Assembly (NCBI GenBank): GCA_016176845.1 | Contig: JACOWJ010000029.1 | Location: 19,335-83,334 of the forward strand | Reading direction: 5' to 3' | Length of the DNA: 64,000 nt | Source: Nitrospinota bacterium | GTDB lineage: Bacteria > 2-12-FULL-45-22 > JACOWJ01 | Shown: piece after piece, positions 10,127 to 40,408 of the stretch | How positions within the stretch are numbered: the stretch's first letter is position 1 | Layout: each line of letters begins with the position of its first letter | Position numbers and translations under genes: made by a program | Notes under the pieces: model-generated | Told to the model about the DNA's origin: nothing | Databases searched by the model: none | What the model saw: only the letters and a program-made list of their open reading frames with translations

Positions 10127-11169
10127 TCGCTCCTCTGGAGCAGCTTCCGCCGGATCTTGCAAAAATACCGCTCCGCCGTGCGGGCCACCAGGAGGACCAG
10201 GGAGGCCCCGCCCGGCAGGCGGAGGACCCCGCGGAGCACGGCGCGCATCCAGCCGGGGAGGAAGAGGCGCATGATCTCATCCTCCAGGGAGAGATAAAAC
10301 TGGGACGAGCCCGGGTCCCCCTGGCGTCCTGCGCGCCCTCGGAGCTGATGATCGATGCGCCGGGACTCGTGCCGCACGCTGCCGATCACGTGCAGCCCGC
10401 CCAGGAGGATGTCGGTTCCTCGGCCGGCCATGTTGGTCGCGATGGTCACGGCCCCGAATCGACCCGCGTTGGCCACCACCTGGGCCTCCTCGGCATCCTG
10501 CTTGGCGTTCAGGATCCGGTGGGGGACATTGCGTCGGGCCAGCTGCTCGCTCAGGCGCTCCGAGTCGGCCACGGAGATCGTCCCCACCAGCACGGGTCGC
10601 CCCAGGGCATGCCAGTGGCTGATCTCGTCCACGATGGCGTAATGGAGCTCCCGCTGGATCCGCTCGGCTGGTGGGACTTCCGATCCGTGGAGGAGATAGT
10701 CGAAGAAATTGCCCCCGTTCAGGGTCTGCTGCAAGAGCTCTCCCCTGGAGCGGGGGAGGTGGTCGCGGAGATAGTCAAATCCGAATTCCTTGTTGCTGCC
10801 GTAGGAGACCTCATCCCGGTAGGCCTGCCGCCGTTCCAGGTGGGGTCTCCCGTGGAGGAGGACGCCGGTGCTGAGGCCCAGGAATTGATAAACGGGGCCC
10901 AGCAAGTCCCGGTCGCGTTGGGCCAGGTAATCGTTCGTCGTGACCACATGGACCCCCTTGCCGGCCAAGCCGTTCAGGTAGGCGGGGAGGGAGGCCACCA
11001 GGGTCTTCCCTTCGCCGGTGGCCATCTCGGCGATCTTGCCCTGATGGAGGGCGATCCCTCCGAGCAGTTGCACCGGGAAGAGGCGCATCCCCAGAATCCG
11101 GTGGATCGCTTCGCGAACCACGGCGAAGGCTTCGGGCAGGAGGGCTCGCCACGGTAAACATGGGCACAC
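10120..11169 (-). pseudogene. SecA preprotein translocase ATPase relic with large in-frame deletion
   Basis: EMATGEGKTLVASLPAYLNGL, VHVVTTNDYLAQRD, FGFDYLRDHL, then YAIVDE joined directly to HALGRPVLVGTISVADSE, NMAGRGTDI, DHQLRGRAGRQGDPGSSQFYLSLED. Confidence 0.85.
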
Positions 11170-11637
11170 ATAGCGTGATCGCAGCGAAGATCAAAATAAG
11201 CACAGCACGCCAGCGCATCAGCTGGGATCCTCTTTATATTTGCCATATTTTTTCTGTTCTGTTTCCATAATTGATGCTCACTCAATAAATGTGGGTGTGT
11301 TCTCGAGTATAAACCCGATGCCTTCGAAGATATTGGTATTTTGTAGAAGCAAAGAAAGTGCCAAGACTCCACAAAACTCAAATTGGTCCTCGTCGAAGCT
11401 GTCAAGGGCTTCCTTGTGGCTCACCCGGATCCAACATTGAGGCTTGTTATGGCCATTTTTTTCTTCGCTAAGAAAAAATTTCATGGAAAAAAATTCAATC
11501 GGTCAAATCACTTTGGGTAAGACCGAACAAAATGACAGAATTGTAATCTTCCTGTAAGCCTGCCGTTAGGGCGCGTATGGTATTTATATCTTCTCAAATC
11601 TGGCCCCCTCAAATGCTTCAAATTCCGGCGAGACATG

Positions 11638-11900
11638 AGAATGAGCAAGGCCTTCGTCACCATACCGACCTACAACGGGCATGAAGGAGTCGGCCCTCTT
11701 TTACACCGGACGGCAGGGCCAGGTCCTTCGGAGCCGCCAGGAGCTGGTGGGCTACCTCCAGGGGGGCAAGAGGGTTTACTGTTTGATGGAAAAGCGAAGA
11801 TACCGCAGGCTGGATGACGCGCTGAAGCGAAGGATGAGGGTCGTCGCCCGTGAGGGCGACATTTGCTGTTGGCCACGCCCAAGTAATGCGGTCTCGATAA
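11638..11900 (+). pseudogene. Glycosyltransferase remnants: GT2 N-terminus next to a GT39/ArnT-like C-terminal tail
   Basis: MSKAFVTIPTYN (GT2-like start) followed in another frame by GYLQGGKRVYCLMEKRRYRRLDDALKRRMRVVAREGD. Confidence 0.45.
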
Positions 11901-11904
11901 AGGG

Positions 11905-12888
11905 GTGCATCTCTTGTCCGATCTGGAACGATTTTCCCTCAAGCGGGAGCTGATCAGGAAAAGGACGTTGCTCTCCGCCCTGATTTGCGCCCTCTTGCTC
12001 TCCCTCTTTCTCTCCCGGGTGAGTTTCTCAGAAACCGGGCGGGCCCTCTGGCGGGCCAGGCTTGCCTTCCTCTTCCTGGCCTTCCTCTCCCACTACCTGG
12101 CCTATCTCTTCCGGGGACACCGCTGGAAACGAATCGTGTCACGCCTGGGCTTCCAGGGAAGAAGCCTGGACCTGGCCAGAATCATCCTGCTCTTCCAGTC
12201 CCTCGACTGTGTGATCCCGGCCCGGCTGGGGGACCTCTATGGGGCCCATCTGATGAAGCTCAACTTCTCGCTGAGCCGCTCCTCTTCGTTGGGCTCGATC
12301 TTCCTCTGGCGCATCCTGGATGCCCTGGTGATGTTCTCCCTGATCCTGCTCACGACCCTTCTGCTCTTCGGGCGGCGGGTGCCTGCAGAGCTGGCCTTCC
12401 TCTTGCACGCCGTCCAGGTGGGAGCCCTGCTGATCCCTGTTCTGGCCGTATCGCTCCTGGTCGGCCGGAAGACGATCCTGCCCCGCCTCCCCCTCGGAAA
12501 GCGGTTGAGGCGGGCCGTGGATTCCTTTGGAGGAGGGCTGAAGCCGGAGATGAGCGCCCTTCCCTTTCTCCTGCTCTCCACCGGCCTGGTCTGGCTGTTG
12601 GAGATGGGAAGGCTCTACTTTATCTGCTGTGCCTTCTCTTTGCGGCTCAGCCCGGTCGAGGTGGCCTTCGTCTCGCTGGCGGCGACCCTGTCTACCGCCA
12701 TTCCCTTGACCCCTGCGGGCCTGGGAGCCGTCGAGTTGATCATGGTGAAGCTGCTGACCCTGGTGCGCGTGGATGGGGCCCTGGTCTATCCGATCACGAT
12801 GCTGGATCGGGCCATTGCCCATTGGAGCCAGATCCTCCTGGGAGCCCTCTGCTTTGGCTTCTCGGGAGGATTGAAGGTCAGGGATTGA
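11905..12888 (+). CDS. Lysylphosphatidylglycerol synthase TM-region / UPF0104 (AglD-like) integral membrane protein
   Basis: Multiple TM segments; RGHRWKRIVSRLGF, GDLYGAHLMK, TAIPLTPAGLGAVELIMVKLL. Confidence 0.8.
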   Translation: MHLLSDLERFSLKRELIRKRTLLSALICALLLSLFLSRVSFSETGRALWRARLAFLFLAFLSHYLAYLFRGHRWKRIVSRLGFQGRSLDLARIILLFQSLDCVIPARLGDLYGAHLMKLNFSLSRSSSLGSIFLWRILDALVMFSLILLTTLLLFGRRVPAELAFLLHAVQVGALLIPVLAVSLLVGRKTILPRLPLGKRLRRAVDSFGGGLKPEMSALPFLLLSTGLVWLLEMGRLYFICCAFSLRLSPVEVAFVSLAATLSTAIPLTPAGLGAVELIMVKLLTLVRVDGALVYPITMLDRAIAHWSQILLGALCFGFSGGLKVRD

Positions 12889-33780: not shown

Positions 33781-34252
33781 CGTCCCCCTCCCCCTGACCT
33801 CGCACCAGGGGAGGGTTGGGGTGGGGGTGAACCTAACTTGCGAATTCCTCTCTTGACTTTCTCCGTTCCCAGATGTACTTTTTCCACAGGGCAAATTCCT
33901 ATCCAAAAATCTCCCCAAGAGCAAATTCCTATCCAAGAAAGATAGGGTTAAGATTGTCCATGATTTGGACGATACAAAGGGTAATCAGCCGATCGAACCC
34001 TGCCCGGCCGGTGCGATCACCGGTACCTATAGCGGCCAAGGTTGCTCGCCGAACCATGGCAGCGCTATATTAAATTATCCCCCCTTGCGAAGGGGGGGGT
34101 TCTTCGCTAAAAATGGAAATTCCTATACGACCCAGGTACACTGCCAATGGCGAGATCGAGAGCAAGGCTTCGGGGACCGGACTACGACCTATGTGTACCG
34201 CATTTTAAGAAACCTTATGACTGCCGTCTCGCTGGAAGGACGCGCGTGTAGT

Positions 34253-36157
34253 ATGGGAATGAAACGTTACAACTTTTTAAAAATAATTTCGGCGATTTCG
34301 GGGTCGATGTGTCTGTTGGCATCCTCCTTACCTGTTGAAGCTGATGTCCTTGAAAAAATCCAAATTCCCCTTTCTTACCTACAAAAGAATGATATTTCCA
34401 CCCACTCTGAAGTGAAAAAAAGCCTTCTATCTTTGAATAAGTGGATTAGCAAAAGAGACAAAAAGGGGATAAAAAAAACAATAGATAATCTTAAAACGAT
34501 TCGTCTAAATTGGGGGAGCAGGAATCTTCCGTTTATCGCGGATTTCCTCCGAGGAAAAGGCCAATTCTTGTTTCAATTAGAGGAATATGATTTGGGGATT
34601 TTTCTGTTGGAACAGGCTAAAGATGCATTTCCTGAAGATTATAGAATTCGTTTTTCTCTCACTAAAATTTATTGCTCTAATCAGGGATTTGACCTTAGAA
34701 AGGGATATTTAAACCTGAAAGATGGACTTGGGCTTTATCTAAATTCAAAATTGAGGCAAGATCGGTTTGTTTATTCTTCCATTATTTTATTTTGTTTCGC
34801 TTTTGTAATTTCCATTTATCTCTATTTTATGCTTCTTCTATTGAAAAATTATAAAAAAGTAAGCTATGATCTCAAGAAAATACTAGGACTCAATGTTAAA
34901 TCGTTATTTTCATCTTTCTTTACAATTCTTCTTATCCTACTTCCAGGCATCGCAGGTAGTTTTTATGTTTTTATCCTGTCTATCCCTGCCTTTATCTGGC
35001 CTTATTTGAGAAATTTAAACAAAGCTATTTTGGCTGTGTTTACTGCATTTCTTTTATTTTGTCCGATTACATTGGGTTATGCTGTAGAAGGAATCATAAA
35101 ATACAACTCCTCTTATAACGGAAAACTTGATGATTTTTCCCATAATGTTTGGGACACCGAAACGTTAAATTATTTTAAAGACCGTCTTAATAAAGACATG
35201 CATGATCCTTTTATCAATACATCTGTAGGATTACTCTACAAATGGATGGGAGATCTAAATAAATATCATCGCATATTTAACAAACTTAATCAGGATAACC
35301 CAGATCATGTACCCACTTTGATCAATTTTGGAAATTCCATGCTTTTATCTGGAAAGCTTGATGAAGCGATGAAGCTCTACCAACAAGCCCTGAAGATTGC
35401 CCCTAATAGCGTAGAAGCCCATTATAATTTAAGTCTGGCTCTGGAGGAGAATATGAAATTTGTGGAGGCGAGAGGAGAGTATCAGAAAGCGCACGCCATA
35501 GATCCAATCAGGCTTCAGCGTCTTCTGTCTCAATTCTTGGCCCAAAAATCCAATAACGTGCAACCAATGGATAAAATCGCAGATATTCCCAAATTTGAAG
35601 CGACAGAAAATTCCCAGATCTTATCAAACCAAATGAAGGAAGAGGTGTTAAATTTTCTCTTAATTCCACTCTTACGAAAAGAATCGATCATTCCCTTCGC
35701 GACTTCGCTACTTTTTCTCATACTGCTTATGCTATGGCGTTACAAAATATTAACCAAAGCAAGCGAACAATGTGATACCTGCGGTACAGTCTTTGAGCGG
35801 GAAATGAAATGCCCGTTGTGCATTGCCATGAAGACATCCCACATGCGGCTAGATCCTGAAAAAAGGGAAATGGCGTCTGTGAAGATATGGAGATATTCCA
35901 TATTTAAAAAAACTGTTCCAACCCTATTTAATGCGATCTTACCCGGATCAGGTCTACTTTTTGACGATTCAGATCTAGCAGGGTTTGTTTTTATTTTTTT
36001 GACCCTATTTTTGGTTATTTGCGGAGCCCTCTTTTTAATTTGTCCTTCACAGCCTTTTCAGGTTGAAGTAATCATTACTTTTTTGGCTGGGTACTATATG
36101 ATCATTAACTTTCTTTTTATTTTTCAAACTAAAATATGGCACTTAAAGGAAATTTAA
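34253..36157 (+). CDS. Polytopic membrane protein with TPR region and zinc-ribbon
   Basis: ORF 33965..36157, in-frame ATGs at 34253/34259; signal-like N-terminus; TPR NFGNSMLLSGKLDEAMKLYQQALKIAPNSVEAHYNLSLAL; CDTCGTVFEREMKCPLC; several TM helices. Confidence 0.75.
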   Translation: MGMKRYNFLKIISAISGSMCLLASSLPVEADVLEKIQIPLSYLQKNDISTHSEVKKSLLSLNKWISKRDKKGIKKTIDNLKTIRLNWGSRNLPFIADFLRGKGQFLFQLEEYDLGIFLLEQAKDAFPEDYRIRFSLTKIYCSNQGFDLRKGYLNLKDGLGLYLNSKLRQDRFVYSSIILFCFAFVISIYLYFMLLLLKNYKKVSYDLKKILGLNVKSLFSSFFTILLILLPGIAGSFYVFILSIPAFIWPYLRNLNKAILAVFTAFLLFCPITLGYAVEGIIKYNSSYNGKLDDFSHNVWDTETLNYFKDRLNKDMHDPFINTSVGLLYKWMGDLNKYHRIFNKLNQDNPDHVPTLINFGNSMLLSGKLDEAMKLYQQALKIAPNSVEAHYNLSLALEENMKFVEARGEYQKAHAIDPIRLQRLLSQFLAQKSNNVQPMDKIADIPKFEATENSQILSNQMKEEVLNFLLIPLLRKESIIPFATSLLFLILLMLWRYKILTKASEQCDTCGTVFEREMKCPLCIAMKTSHMRLDPEKREMASVKIWRYSIFKKTVPTLFNAILPGSGLLFDDSDLAGFVFIFLTLFLVICGALFLICPSQPFQVEVIITFLAGYYMIINFLFIFQTKIWHLKEI

Positions 36158-37278
36158 AAGATTTTTCGATTAATAATATTCTCCAGATGATTTTTCTGGA
36201 GAAAAAGGGTGGGAGGCTTCTTGTAACCTCCGGAAAAGAATCGATTTCCGTTTTTTTTGATGAAGGGAAAATACTTCATGCGGAGCAAGGGGGGATAATT
36301 GATAAAAGAAGAATGAAACGAGTATTGCTTAAAAATCAATATTTAACTAAAGAACAGTGGGATTTGATGGTGGAAGAAAGTGAACGCACCTTTCAACCCC
36401 TATGGATACTTTTATCTCGCATTTTAGAAAAAAATACCCATGCATTCCTTTTTCTTCACCAACGTCATATTGAACATGTCCTTTTTAGCCTCCTTCGATG
36501 GGAGAGGGGTGAGTATGAATATAACCCAGAAGACGTCCCCCACCTGGATAAAAAGGTATTCAGGCCGGTTGAAGGGGAATTCCTTCTGATGGAAGGATAT
36601 CGAGTTATCGATGAGTTGAAAAAACTGGAATCCAAGCTTCCACCGATGGAAACCAAGATCTTTACTTCAACAGAGTATAACAAAATAGTGACTGAAAATG
36701 ATATTCGAGTCGATGATAACGAAAGATACATTCTGTCGATTTTAGAGCAACCCATATCCCTGAATGACCTTTTCGATTCAAGTCAGATTAATATTTGTGA
36801 AACAGGGAAAGGCGTTGAAAAGTTACTATCTTCAGGCATTTTAACGGTCTTATCAAAAGGAGAAGTACCTAAACTATCGGACAAATCAACGCATAACTGG
36901 AGGAAGCACGCTGTTGTCGGGTCGATATTTTTTTCCGTATTCCTCGGAATTTTGGTTCGAACAAAATATTTGGATACAGAATTCGCATCAAATCAATTAG
37001 TTAACAGGTATAAAATAATTCAGGTAACAGATACAATGAACAATATTGTAAAATCATTGAAGTTTTACATTTCACTAACAGGAACATTTCCATATAATCT
37101 TGAATCATTGGTGAAAGAGGGCTACATCTCAAGGAAAGAAACCTTGGATCCATGGGGAAGACAATTTATCCTTGAAAAAAATAGCCAATTTTTTGCAATC
37201 TTTAGTCAAGGTCCCTCCCCGGATGATCCTGGAGATGATATATATTTTCATTTGGATAACCAATTTTATCACGAATGA
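36136..37278 (+). CDS. DUF4388 (PatA N-terminal-like) protein with TM helix and GspG/pseudopilin-like C-terminal domain
   Basis: MALKGNLKDFSINNILQMIFLEKKGGRLLVTSGKESISVFFDEGKILHAEQGG; C-terminus GTFPYNLESLVKEGYISRKETLDPWGRQFIL...SQGPSPDDPGDDIYF; 22-nt overlap with upstream gene. Confidence 0.75.
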   Translation: MALKGNLKDFSINNILQMIFLEKKGGRLLVTSGKESISVFFDEGKILHAEQGGIIDKRRMKRVLLKNQYLTKEQWDLMVEESERTFQPLWILLSRILEKNTHAFLFLHQRHIEHVLFSLLRWERGEYEYNPEDVPHLDKKVFRPVEGEFLLMEGYRVIDELKKLESKLPPMETKIFTSTEYNKIVTENDIRVDDNERYILSILEQPISLNDLFDSSQINICETGKGVEKLLSSGILTVLSKGEVPKLSDKSTHNWRKHAVVGSIFFSVFLGILVRTKYLDTEFASNQLVNRYKIIQVTDTMNNIVKSLKFYISLTGTFPYNLESLVKEGYISRKETLDPWGRQFILEKNSQFFAIFSQGPSPDDPGDDIYFHLDNQFYHE

Positions 37279-37284
37279 CTTGTA

Positions 37285-38142
37285 ATGGATAAAACAGAAG
37301 AGAGACAGAACCCCTCGACATACTTAAAATTGGCCCAGACCTTCTTAAGTCTGGGCGATGACGATCTTGCAAGACTGACCTGCGAGAGAGGGCTAAAACA
37401 CTTTCCAACAGATGCGAGCCTGCATACTCAGAGGGGAAGTACATTAATCAGCTCGTACAACAAATCGAAGAAAACGGAAGATCTTATTCAGGCAATTAAG
37501 TCTTTCGAGAAGTCTATAGCCATCAATCCCGACAATTATCTCGCATTGATGTTGTCTGCCAAGATTTATATTAAGGTAAAAGCCTACTTTAAGGCCAGAC
37601 AAAAACTTACGATGATTCTTTCATCTTTTCCCGGAGATCCTAAGGCGACTGAATTGCTAAAGTTAATTTCAGCTAAGGAACAGCATTTGAAGCTAGTAGA
37701 CGAAGAAAAACTGCAAGTAGAGCTAGAAGGCGATGATGATGATATTGATAGTCAGGAAGATCAGATTTCAGCTAATTACGATTTACTAGCCTCCTATCTA
37801 AACCTATTTAAGGAGGAATATGGAATTGAGATGGTATTGTTGGTAGATAAATATGGAATGGTTATTAAAAGTATTAATATGTCAAAACGAGATTCCAACC
37901 GATACGGGATCGCTGTTTCAAATATATTCAGGTCGTCTCAAAACGCCGTGCGGAAAACGAGTCTTAGCACCTTTTCGAAAGGATTTTTAATCACTCCTGA
38001 ATACAACATCTACATTGTGGATGTAAAAGGTACCATCTTAGTCATTGTAACACTCCCTAAGGCCGAAAATGAAGGGATTGAAAAGAGAATCGAACATTAT
38101 GTCAGAGAAATAGACTCAAAATGGACATCGAAGAAATCCTGA
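37285..38142 (+). CDS. TPR-roadblock/LC7 fusion protein
   Basis: N-terminal TPR helices; C-terminal roadblock-like YGIEMVLLVDKYGMVIKSIN...ISNIFRSSQ...IYIVDVKGTILVIVTLP. Confidence 0.7.
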   Translation: MDKTEERQNPSTYLKLAQTFLSLGDDDLARLTCERGLKHFPTDASLHTQRGSTLISSYNKSKKTEDLIQAIKSFEKSIAINPDNYLALMLSAKIYIKVKAYFKARQKLTMILSSFPGDPKATELLKLISAKEQHLKLVDEEKLQVELEGDDDDIDSQEDQISANYDLLASYLNLFKEEYGIEMVLLVDKYGMVIKSINMSKRDSNRYGIAVSNIFRSSQNAVRKTSLSTFSKGFLITPEYNIYIVDVKGTILVIVTLPKAENEGIEKRIEHYVREIDSKWTSKKS

Positions 38143-38477
38143 AAAAGCTGAACAGGAACAAACATATCAAAGGAAGTCTGGTGATTACCCAAGAAGGTAT
38201 GGTGGTAATGTCGGCATTGGGGGCCGGGCAAAACGCTGACATTTTTGCTGCTTTCTATTCCTCCGTGGGCTTAACCATTTTGAAATCATTAAAGAACTTA
38301 GACATTGAAACCTTTTATCGGTATATCTTATCGTCCGAGGATTCCAACCTTTTTTTTGTTAACATTGGAAAACTGTACCTTGTGGTCATAACCGATATCG
38401 ATGTGAAACTGTCGGAAATGAATGTGGAACTTTATCAGATCGAGAGCCTAATTCGAAAAACGGGGCGCCTTGAATAA
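38121..38477 (+). CDS. Roadblock/LC7 domain protein
   Basis: IKGSLVITQEGMVVMSALGAGQNADIFAAFYSSVGLTILKSL...LFFVNIGKLYLVVITD; 22-nt overlap with upstream gene. Confidence 0.78.
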   Translation: MDIEEILKKLNRNKHIKGSLVITQEGMVVMSALGAGQNADIFAAFYSSVGLTILKSLKNLDIETFYRYILSSEDSNLFFVNIGKLYLVVITDIDVKLSEMNVELYQIESLIRKTGRLE

Positions 38478-38503
38478 CCATAAAAATAGCTCACGGTAAA
38501 ACA

Positions 38504-39853
38504 ATGCAGATCAATTTTTTTAAACGAGAAGTCATTTGTAAAATTGTATATTATGGTCCGGGGATGAGTGGAAAGACCACGAACCTACAGCAAATTAATG
38601 AAAAAACCCCGGTGGACCTCAGGAGCAATCTAACCTCGATTGCAACGGAAGGCGAAAGAACCCTTTTTTTTGATTATATGCCCCTAAACCTGGGAACCGT
38701 TGGTGATATGAACACAAAATTTCAATTGTACACTGTGCCAGGTCAAGTCTATTATAATGCAACGAGGAAGCTTGTACTTCAGGGAACGGATGGGGTTGTT
38801 TTTGTAGCAGACTCTCAAAATGATAAATTGAATGAAAACATTGAATCTCTACAAAACCTGGTTGATAATCTTAAAGAATATGGGATCTCGATAAAAGATA
38901 TTCCTCTGGTTATCCAGTGGAATAAAAGAGACCTACCGAATGCTTTGGATATTGAATATTTGGAAAAAAACATTAATAAATACAACGTTCCTAGTACAGA
39001 AGCAGTTGCTGCAATAGGTGAAGGTGTTGTAGAAACTTTAAAACTCATTTCATCTTTGGTCCTTGCAAATTTAACCCAAAAACAAAGTACAACGATCTCT
39101 GTGACCCAAAAACAAAGCACCACCACTTCTATAACCCAACAACAAAGTAGAGCCGCCTATCCGACCCTAAAACAAAGAACAACCGCTTCTCCTTCTCCCC
39201 AACCCTCAAAAACCACCCTTTTGCATAGGGTCCGGCAAGTTGGACAGAGGTATCTCGGCTGGATGCGGCGGAAAGAAAAAATATTAGCGACGATTGATGA
39301 TGTGAATATTAACAAATCCTATATGATAAATTTTTACAACTTGCAGGTAAGAATGAATGCAAAATCACCCGTAGAGGATAACTATGATAATTTATCCCAA
39401 TCGGAGAAGAAAGACTATCTTGATCAACTGATCAACCATTATCTGCTTCTTGGGGAATCTAAAAAGATAGGGATAACAATATCAAATCAAGAAGTAGATA
39501 AATACCTGAATCTTTACGTTAATAAATATGGATCAGAAGAGAAATACAAAACCTACCTCACCCAAAGGAAGCTAAAACTGGAAGACATAAAGAATGAAAT
39601 CATCAAACAAATTATTATTAACAAAATTATTAAAATAAAAATCCCTAATTTTCAAGAAAAACTCAAAGTAGATGAAAATGAACTTTTAGATTACTACAAA
39701 ACCAATCTGAAAAAAGTAAATGTTCCTTTTGAAAGCCAAAAAAAAGAAATTGAACAGGCCTTAACTAAACACAAAAAATCAAAATTGAACCAGGAGCTCT
39801 TTCAGATTTTGCGCAGCAAAAATACAATAAAGACCTATCCGGAGAATTTATGA
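38504..39853 (+). CDS. MglA-like small GTPase fused via repeat linker to a SurA-type chaperone domain lacking PPIase
   Basis: G1 YYGPGMSGKTTNLQ, YTVPGQVYYNATRKLVLQGTDGVVFVADSQ, NKRDLP; C-terminal YLDQLINHYLLLGESKKIGITISNQEVDKYLNLYVNKYGSEEKYKTYLTQRKLKLEDIKNEIIKQIIINKII. Confidence 0.85.
   Translation: MQINFFKREVICKIVYYGPGMSGKTTNLQQINEKTPVDLRSNLTSIATEGERTLFFDYMPLNLGTVGDMNTKFQLYTVPGQVYYNATRKLVLQGTDGVVFVADSQNDKLNENIESLQNLVDNLKEYGISIKDIPLVIQWNKRDLPNALDIEYLEKNINKYNVPSTEAVAAIGEGVVETLKLISSLVLANLTQKQSTTISVTQKQSTTTSITQQQSRAAYPTLKQRTTASPSPQPSKTTLLHRVRQVGQRYLGWMRRKEKILATIDDVNINKSYMINFYNLQVRMNAKSPVEDNYDNLSQSEKKDYLDQLINHYLLLGESKKIGITISNQEVDKYLNLYVNKYGSEEKYKTYLTQRKLKLEDIKNEIIKQIIINKIIKIKIPNFQEKLKVDENELLDYYKTNLKKVNVPFESQKKEIEQALTKHKKSKLNQELFQILRSKNTIKTYPENL
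39074..39193 (+). repeat. Four tandem 30-bp units encoding the TQKQSTT linker
   Basis: acccaaaaacaaagyac... at 39074, 39104, 39134, 39164. Confidence 0.85.
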
Positions 39854-39889
39854 TCGGGTATCGGATGAATCCGATTAGGAGGAATCTTT

Positions 39890-40408
39890 ATGAACGCCGA
39901 CGATCAAAAACTTCGCGATGAAAATCTGAGTTTTTACTTTGAAGATATCGAAAAAATTGATAAAGTGCTTAGTAATTTTCTCACTTTATCGAAGGCCAAG
40001 TCTGTTTTTCTGATCGATAAAAGTGGCAGCATGATAACCTATAAAGGGGAGAATCAATCTATCAATGTTGATGAATTGTCCGCTCTTGTGGCCGCAAGTT
40101 TTGCCGCCACCAAAGAAATAGCCCGTCTCTTAGGTGAGGCTGAATTTACGGTCATGTTCCATCAGGGGAAAAAAGATAATATCCATATCAGCCTGATCGG
40201 AAACAAAGCCATATCCGTAACCCTATTCGGTGATGATACCACTGTTGGAATGATCGGCCATTACTCAAAAGAACTTTCACACAAACTTGCGTCCATATTC
40301 GAAATCATATCCAAAAGGATTGTCCGACATCAGGAGCAGATTGCCGGGGATTTAGGCGCATTCGTCGAAAATAAACTGAATGAACTTTTTAAGGTCTATC
40401 CCTCGTAG
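39890..40408 (+). CDS. Roadblock/LC7 domain protein (MglB-like)
   Basis: [50 protein letters not shown]...[23 protein letters not shown]. Confidence 0.82.

Follow-up and report, generated by a model that had tools for sequence, protein, structure and literature searches.

Operon and genomic setting

Within the window, that is, the whole stretch of 64,000 nucleotides of DNA analysed here, six genes on the forward strand form an operon whose fifth member encodes a predicted MglA-type GTPase joined to a SurA-like core. The genes, and the three parts of the fusion protein, are given below with the basis of each assignment.

33965-36157, forward strand: operon gene 1, TPR protein with several predicted transmembrane (TM) segments (homologue in the fusion operons of genomes G459, G600 and G731)
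36136-37278, forward strand: operon gene 2, protein with a DUF4388 (PATAN-type) domain, one TM segment and a T2SSG/pseudopilin-like C-terminal domain (Pfam, homologues)
37285-38142, forward strand: operon gene 3, TPR repeats with a Roadblock/LC7 domain (Pfam, homologous loci)
38121-38477, forward strand: operon gene 4, Roadblock/LC7 protein, MglB-like (Pfam, homologous loci)
38504-39853, forward strand: operon gene 5, MglA-SurA fusion (open reading frame)
38504-39073, forward strand: predicted MglA-type GTPase domain of the fusion, residues 1-190 (motifs, Pfam, identity to relatives)
39074-39274, forward strand: low-complexity linker of the fusion, residues 191-257 (alignment, AlphaFold2, repeat)
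39275-39850, forward strand: predicted SurA core domain of the fusion without PPIase, residues 258-449 (Pfam SurA_N_3, AlphaFold2, Foldseek, 18-member alignment)
39890-40408, forward strand: operon gene 6, Roadblock/LC7 protein, MglB-like (Pfam, homologous loci)

The listed start of operon gene 1 is probably too early. The DUF4388 match of gene 2 has an E-value of 5e-22, and the T2SSG match, sub-threshold in the window, lies above the cut-off (7.7e-8) in the G459 homologue. A DUF4388 protein with one TM segment and a T2SSG-like C-terminal domain, conserved beside the fusion and comparable to the window gene at 36136-37278, is also encoded at positions 10864-12096 of locus L175. Operon gene 6 is 53-54% identical to its counterparts in G600 and G731. 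The conservation of the operon rests on three fully read loci from three other families (G459, G600 and G731), each with six genes encoding TPR-Roadblock, Roadblock, MglA-SurA, Roadblock, TPR-TM and DUF4388-TM-T2SSG-like proteins; the window carries the identical set, but with the TPR-TM and DUF4388-TM genes upstream. Homologues of the TPR-TM protein were not found in the sampled planctomycete operons, which indicates that partners differ between lineages, and weak ones occur near Fibrobacterota MglAs.

The operon, at approximately 33.9-40.4 kb (33965-40408), constitutes a 37% GC island within surroundings of about 60% GC, with a GC3 of 0.35 in the fusion gene against 0.82 in a nearby enolase gene, and the island stops at the start of queC on the opposite strand. 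These data are compatible with vertical descent as well as with transfer from an unsampled low-GC relative, the base composition favouring transfer; acquisition of the operon from a low-GC relative is considered likely.

Domain architecture of the fusion protein

The fusion gene is a single open frame of 449 codons with an ATG start and no internal stops. Its N-terminal part matches Arf/Ras-type GTPase families in Pfam, the Arf family covering residues 12-180 (E 2e-9), and the G1 (GPGMSGKTT), R52-T53, G3 (T77VPGQ81) and G4 (N140KRD143) elements are intact in the window protein and invariant across an alignment of 18 fusions, as is the adjacency of the arginine finger R52 to the G2 threonine T53. 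The GTPase domain is 75% identical over 142 residues to its nearest MglA (L109), which is cut by a contig end and whose remainder was sought and not found, and 68% identical to the MglA of L043. Group 1 MglAs are marked by a TVPGQ motif and an arginine finger beside the G2 threonine (PMC4316618). The fusion has both, its catalytic Arg and Gln being retained, together with the G1-G4 motifs of Ras-like GTPases and the linkage to MglB/Roadblock genes, which lie directly on either side in the window, G459, G600 and G731. By definition MglA proteins were small GTPases of a single domain, and sequences above 240 aa were left out of the 2014 survey (PMC4316618); the fusion, with 449 aa and a second folded domain, falls outside the family range of 150-240 aa. 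As judged from its motifs and matches, the N-terminal half is a Group-1-type MglA GTPase, without biochemical data on GTP hydrolysis or its stimulation by Roadblock proteins. The protein thus resembles the Group 1 MglA/MglB module of Myxococcus xanthus, Thermus and Bdellovibrio in its G-domain motifs, including TVPGQ, its intrinsic arginine finger and its linked Roadblock genes, and differs in the fused SurA core and in having three Roadblock proteins.

The linker of the window protein, longer than that of the other 17 fusions, opens with 3.8 in-frame copies of a 30-bp tandem repeat (39072-39184), which lengthens it in this protein only. AlphaFold2 models residues 236-254 as a basic helix at low confidence.

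The C-terminal part matches Pfam SurA_N_3 (PF13624) over residues 259-375 with 34.7 bits (cut-off 27.2, E 2e-8), while SurA_N_2 (22.2 bits, cut-off 28.5) and SurA_N (PF09312; 14.9 bits, cut-off 30.8) remain sub-threshold, and no Pfam match to a PPIase or rotamase domain was found in the window protein. All 18 aligned fusions have a SurA_N_3 match, 14 of them also one to SurA_N at E 0.1; weak matches to Trigger_C occur in seven and to Rotamase_2 in four (best E 0.011). AlphaFold2, run on the C-terminal part with an 18-row alignment, gives a SurA fold with a pLDDT of 90.2 and a pTM of 0.81, in which an N-terminal beta-hairpin, a helical N-domain, a long C-terminal helix and a C-terminal strand follow one another with nothing between. 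The top PDB matches of this model in Foldseek are SurA in BAM complexes (E 6e-5, TM 0.58/0.64), followed by LIC12922, SurA 1m5y and Cj1289; when structurally aligned, the domain is 14-18% identical to SurA. In a profile alignment, PEB4 (3rfw) is matched in pieces that flank its rotamase on either side. The full-length AlphaFold2 model says nothing about contacts between the two halves, since its G domain is poor (pLDDT below 50 for much of residues 1-95).

By Pfam, AlphaFold2 and Foldseek the core fold of SurA (N-terminal domain and C-terminal helix) is present and the parvulin PPIase domain or domains are lacking; the C-terminal half is, on the sequence matches and the model, a specific SurA core from which the PPIase is absent and which has closed up. 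A generic coiled coil as the C-terminus is ruled out by the same three analyses. The preliminary description had placed all MglA G-motifs in the first 190 or so residues, which agrees with the Arf match and the invariant motifs, and had read the C-terminus as a SurA N-domain followed directly by the post-rotamase segment, the PPIase having been removed; the Pfam, AlphaFold2 and Foldseek results and the PEB4 alignment uphold this reading. The C-terminal sequence that it quoted is correct except for an omitted N between '...NLKKV' and 'VPFES...'.

The predicted domain shares the beta-hairpin, helical N-domain, C-terminal helix and strand of the SurA core (E. coli SurA N-terminal domain and C-terminal region; 1m5y, 8pzv), whereas the fusion lacks the signal peptide and PPIase domains of E. 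coli SurA, is joined to a GTPase and is cytosolic by inference. On its own, the SurA core acts as a chaperone and has a groove for clients, and about 0.5% of SurA homologues are predicted to be core-only (PMC11401910). Stand-alone core-only SurA proteins of about 220 aa without PPIase, with signal-peptide-like or TM starts, were also observed (L265, L277). These share the PPIase-less core, which covers nearly the whole profile, but they start signal-peptide-like and are not fused to a GTPase. The C-terminal domain of trigger factor is a recognised cytosolic relative of the SurA-like fold, to which the weak Trigger_C matches point. Trigger factor, however, is a ribosome-bound chaperone without a GTPase, the similarity to it is weaker than to SurA, and the window protein has no Pfam match to its ribosome-binding domain or FKBP-type PPIase.

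Distribution, conservation and origin

When the C-terminal part alone served as query against 386 broadly sampled genomes, three open frames of 406-425 codons matched end to end (E 4e-32 to 7e-26), at loci encoding MglA-SurA proteins with Roadblock genes on either side; all three genomes belong to one phylum. Among these 386 genomes, single-sequence and profile searches found the fusion only in the window and in three genomes of that one phylum. In that phylum, which is not the window's, 17 of 24 genomes, from six families, encode the fusion as end-to-end homologues of 402-413 aa; the remaining seven have SurA-type matches but none to an MglA G domain at E 1e-3. No fusion was found in 395 planctomycete genomes, no match among viral contigs searched with the SurA half, and none in a first scan of genome contigs with the single window protein.

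The 18 fusions align from first to last residue, and the sole large difference in length is the longer linker of the window protein. In close pairs, dN/dS is 0.02-0.05 for the G domain and, where dS is unsaturated, 0.03-0.11 for the SurA half; for the latter, dS is saturated in two pairs, and a ratio there has no meaning. Both halves are thus under purifying selection in close pairs, for the SurA half in those pairs where dS can be calculated. The SurA half, with 11 of 201 columns invariant, is conserved far less well than the G domain. The fusion is real and conserved, not a one-off.

A tree built from G domains only (104 rows, no firm root) unites the 18 fusions in one clade (92/80), with a single origin in 94% of bootstrap trees, and the window MglA is sister to all others. 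This clade is nested in a 52-row clade (100/99) whose other members are planctomycete-type MglAs. Four of these 34 non-fused members are cut by contig ends before any tail is visible, and 28 of the 30 untruncated ones carry a C-terminal TM segment after a long linker. The Planctomycetota-type MglAs (e.g. L043-L052) have the nearest G domains, a long linker and, in most, Roadblock genes on either side, and differ in ending in the TM segment rather than a SurA core. Since fusions without a TM segment are nested among TM-tailed MglAs, the SurA core occupies the position of the relatives' membrane tail and most likely replaced it, although the direction from TM tail to SurA is inferred from tree placement without a firm root. 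In an rpoB tree of 22 genomes, the window's phylum lies beside the fusion phylum (100/98), and the two adjoin the sampled delta-proteobacterial and acidobacterial lineages.

Several other MglA architectures were observed. Planctomycete MglAs beside Roadblock genes (L043-L052 and others), in which a long low-complexity linker leads to a C-terminal TM segment, constitute a tail-anchored MglA class. Zixibacterial MglAs and one labelled Ignavibacterium (L057, L073, L075, L076, L081, L101, L112) share a conserved basic, amphipathic-looking end, e.g. KKKRGFFKRLFGIK, which may be membrane-binding. MglA-type G domains also lie within very long open frames (about 700-1300 codons) of planctomycete genomes (L130, L134-L137), and genome G790 (L249) has, besides its fusion, an unfused MglA whose C-terminal extension is of another kind and ends in helix-like sequence.

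Topology, possible mechanism and significance

SurA is a textbook periplasmic chaperone, and the placement of its core behind a GTPase raises the question of topology. After residue 190 no TM segment was found in the window protein (top 19-residue Kyte-Doolittle mean 0.64), as the preliminary description had stated for the region between the halves, nor in any of the 18 fusions (top mean 1.21). A TM segment hidden between the halves is ruled out by this hydropathy scan. The N-terminus is the GTPase, without a signal peptide, so that by sequence the protein departs from SurA in its signal peptide and predicted periplasmic location. Because no fusion has a TM segment, the SurA half should be cytosolic, which is the most likely location in the absence of localisation data. 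That the SurA half is instead exported, with the protein spanning the inner membrane in a conventional topology, is very improbable: ordinary SurA is extracytoplasmic and the stand-alone core-only proteins start with a signal-peptide-like or TM segment, but the fusions lack any TM segment, their linker is hydrophilic and the GTPase occupies the N-terminus. The fusion had been called topologically surprising; the halves are as described, and a SurA-like fold in the cytosol loses some of its strangeness in view of trigger factor and the weak Trigger_C matches in seven of 18. An artefactual junction of separate mglA and surA genes, through a frameshift, misassembly or chimeric contig, might be suspected from a 37% GC island within about 60% GC in a 68%-complete metagenome-assembled genome, yet one contig carries both island flanks, the gene set matches at three fully read loci, and the identical joined protein in 17 other genomes excludes a frameshift, in the linker or elsewhere, and misassembly, leaving this explanation virtually no room. 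The proposed search for further MglA-SurA fusions thereby succeeded, in another phylum and with a conserved Roadblock operon.

As a whole, the data are best explained by a cytosolic GTP switch that carries its own built-in SurA effector, to which we assign a probability of about 0.5, there being no partner, client or localisation data. MglB regulates MglA in Myxococcus, and the Roadblock proteins would by analogy act as GAP/GEF-type regulators of the G domain; that they regulate the fusion GTPase is probable, though inferred without hydrolysis data. The SurA core would serve as a peptide- or protein-binding clamp in place of the relatives' TM or amphipathic membrane tail, again by inference, and would attach the GTPase to a client or partner located at the inner membrane. 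It probably binds a protein there, and although binding data are lacking, the operon's two membrane proteins are the obvious candidates. The most likely partner would be either of these (TPR-TM, DUF4388-TM) or a pilin-like or secretion substrate. The GTP state would set the place and time at which the clamp holds its client, and the probable output would be control of a cell-pole or pilus/secretion machine. A TPR partner would have a precedent: MglA of Myxococcus activates pili by recruiting SgmX, itself a TPR protein (PMC11580455). PilT-type ATPases occur in every fusion-bearing genome but also, above cut-off, in six of the seven phylum genomes without the fusion, and their presence is therefore not a discriminating functional correlate; a role of the fusion in pili is possible, not shown.

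Alternatively, the G domain might toggle the SurA core between holding and releasing many clients, such as pilins and membrane proteins before export, making the protein a GTP-regulated cytosolic chaperone. This idea is rather unlikely: the modelled core retains all elements of the fold, seven of 18 fusions show weak Trigger_C similarity and isolated SurA cores are chaperones (PMC11401910), but the company of Roadblock, DUF4388 and TPR genes suggests a dedicated signalling role, nothing shows client binding, and the gene is absent from seven of 24 phylum genomes, unlike a general chaperone. It is likewise unlikely, if conceivable, that the GTPase cycle, under three Roadblock regulators, opens and closes the attached cytoplasmic SurA clamp and loads pilin-like or membrane clients at a chosen site; were this true, the protein would be a GTP-driven version of the ATP-independent SurA-type chaperones. 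Doubtful, too, is a SurA-like domain that is a mere structural or dimerisation scaffold without client binding, for which its low conservation relative to the G domain could be cited, since strong purifying selection and a complete fold, including the C-terminal helix and strand, speak against it.

No description of an MglA-SurA fusion was found in the open-licence papers searched, which is no proof of absence, and the fusion is apparently undescribed so far. Most of what is known about effectors of MglA-type GTPases comes from Myxococcus. By tying one effector to the GTPase, the fusion directly shows a kind of partner protein for it, and it would place the SurA core, part of a periplasmic chaperone, in the cytoplasm beside a GTP switch. 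In addition, it brings to light MglAs with long C-terminal parts, comprising TM tails, amphipathic tails and SurA cores, a hidden class that the standard census omitted through its length limit.
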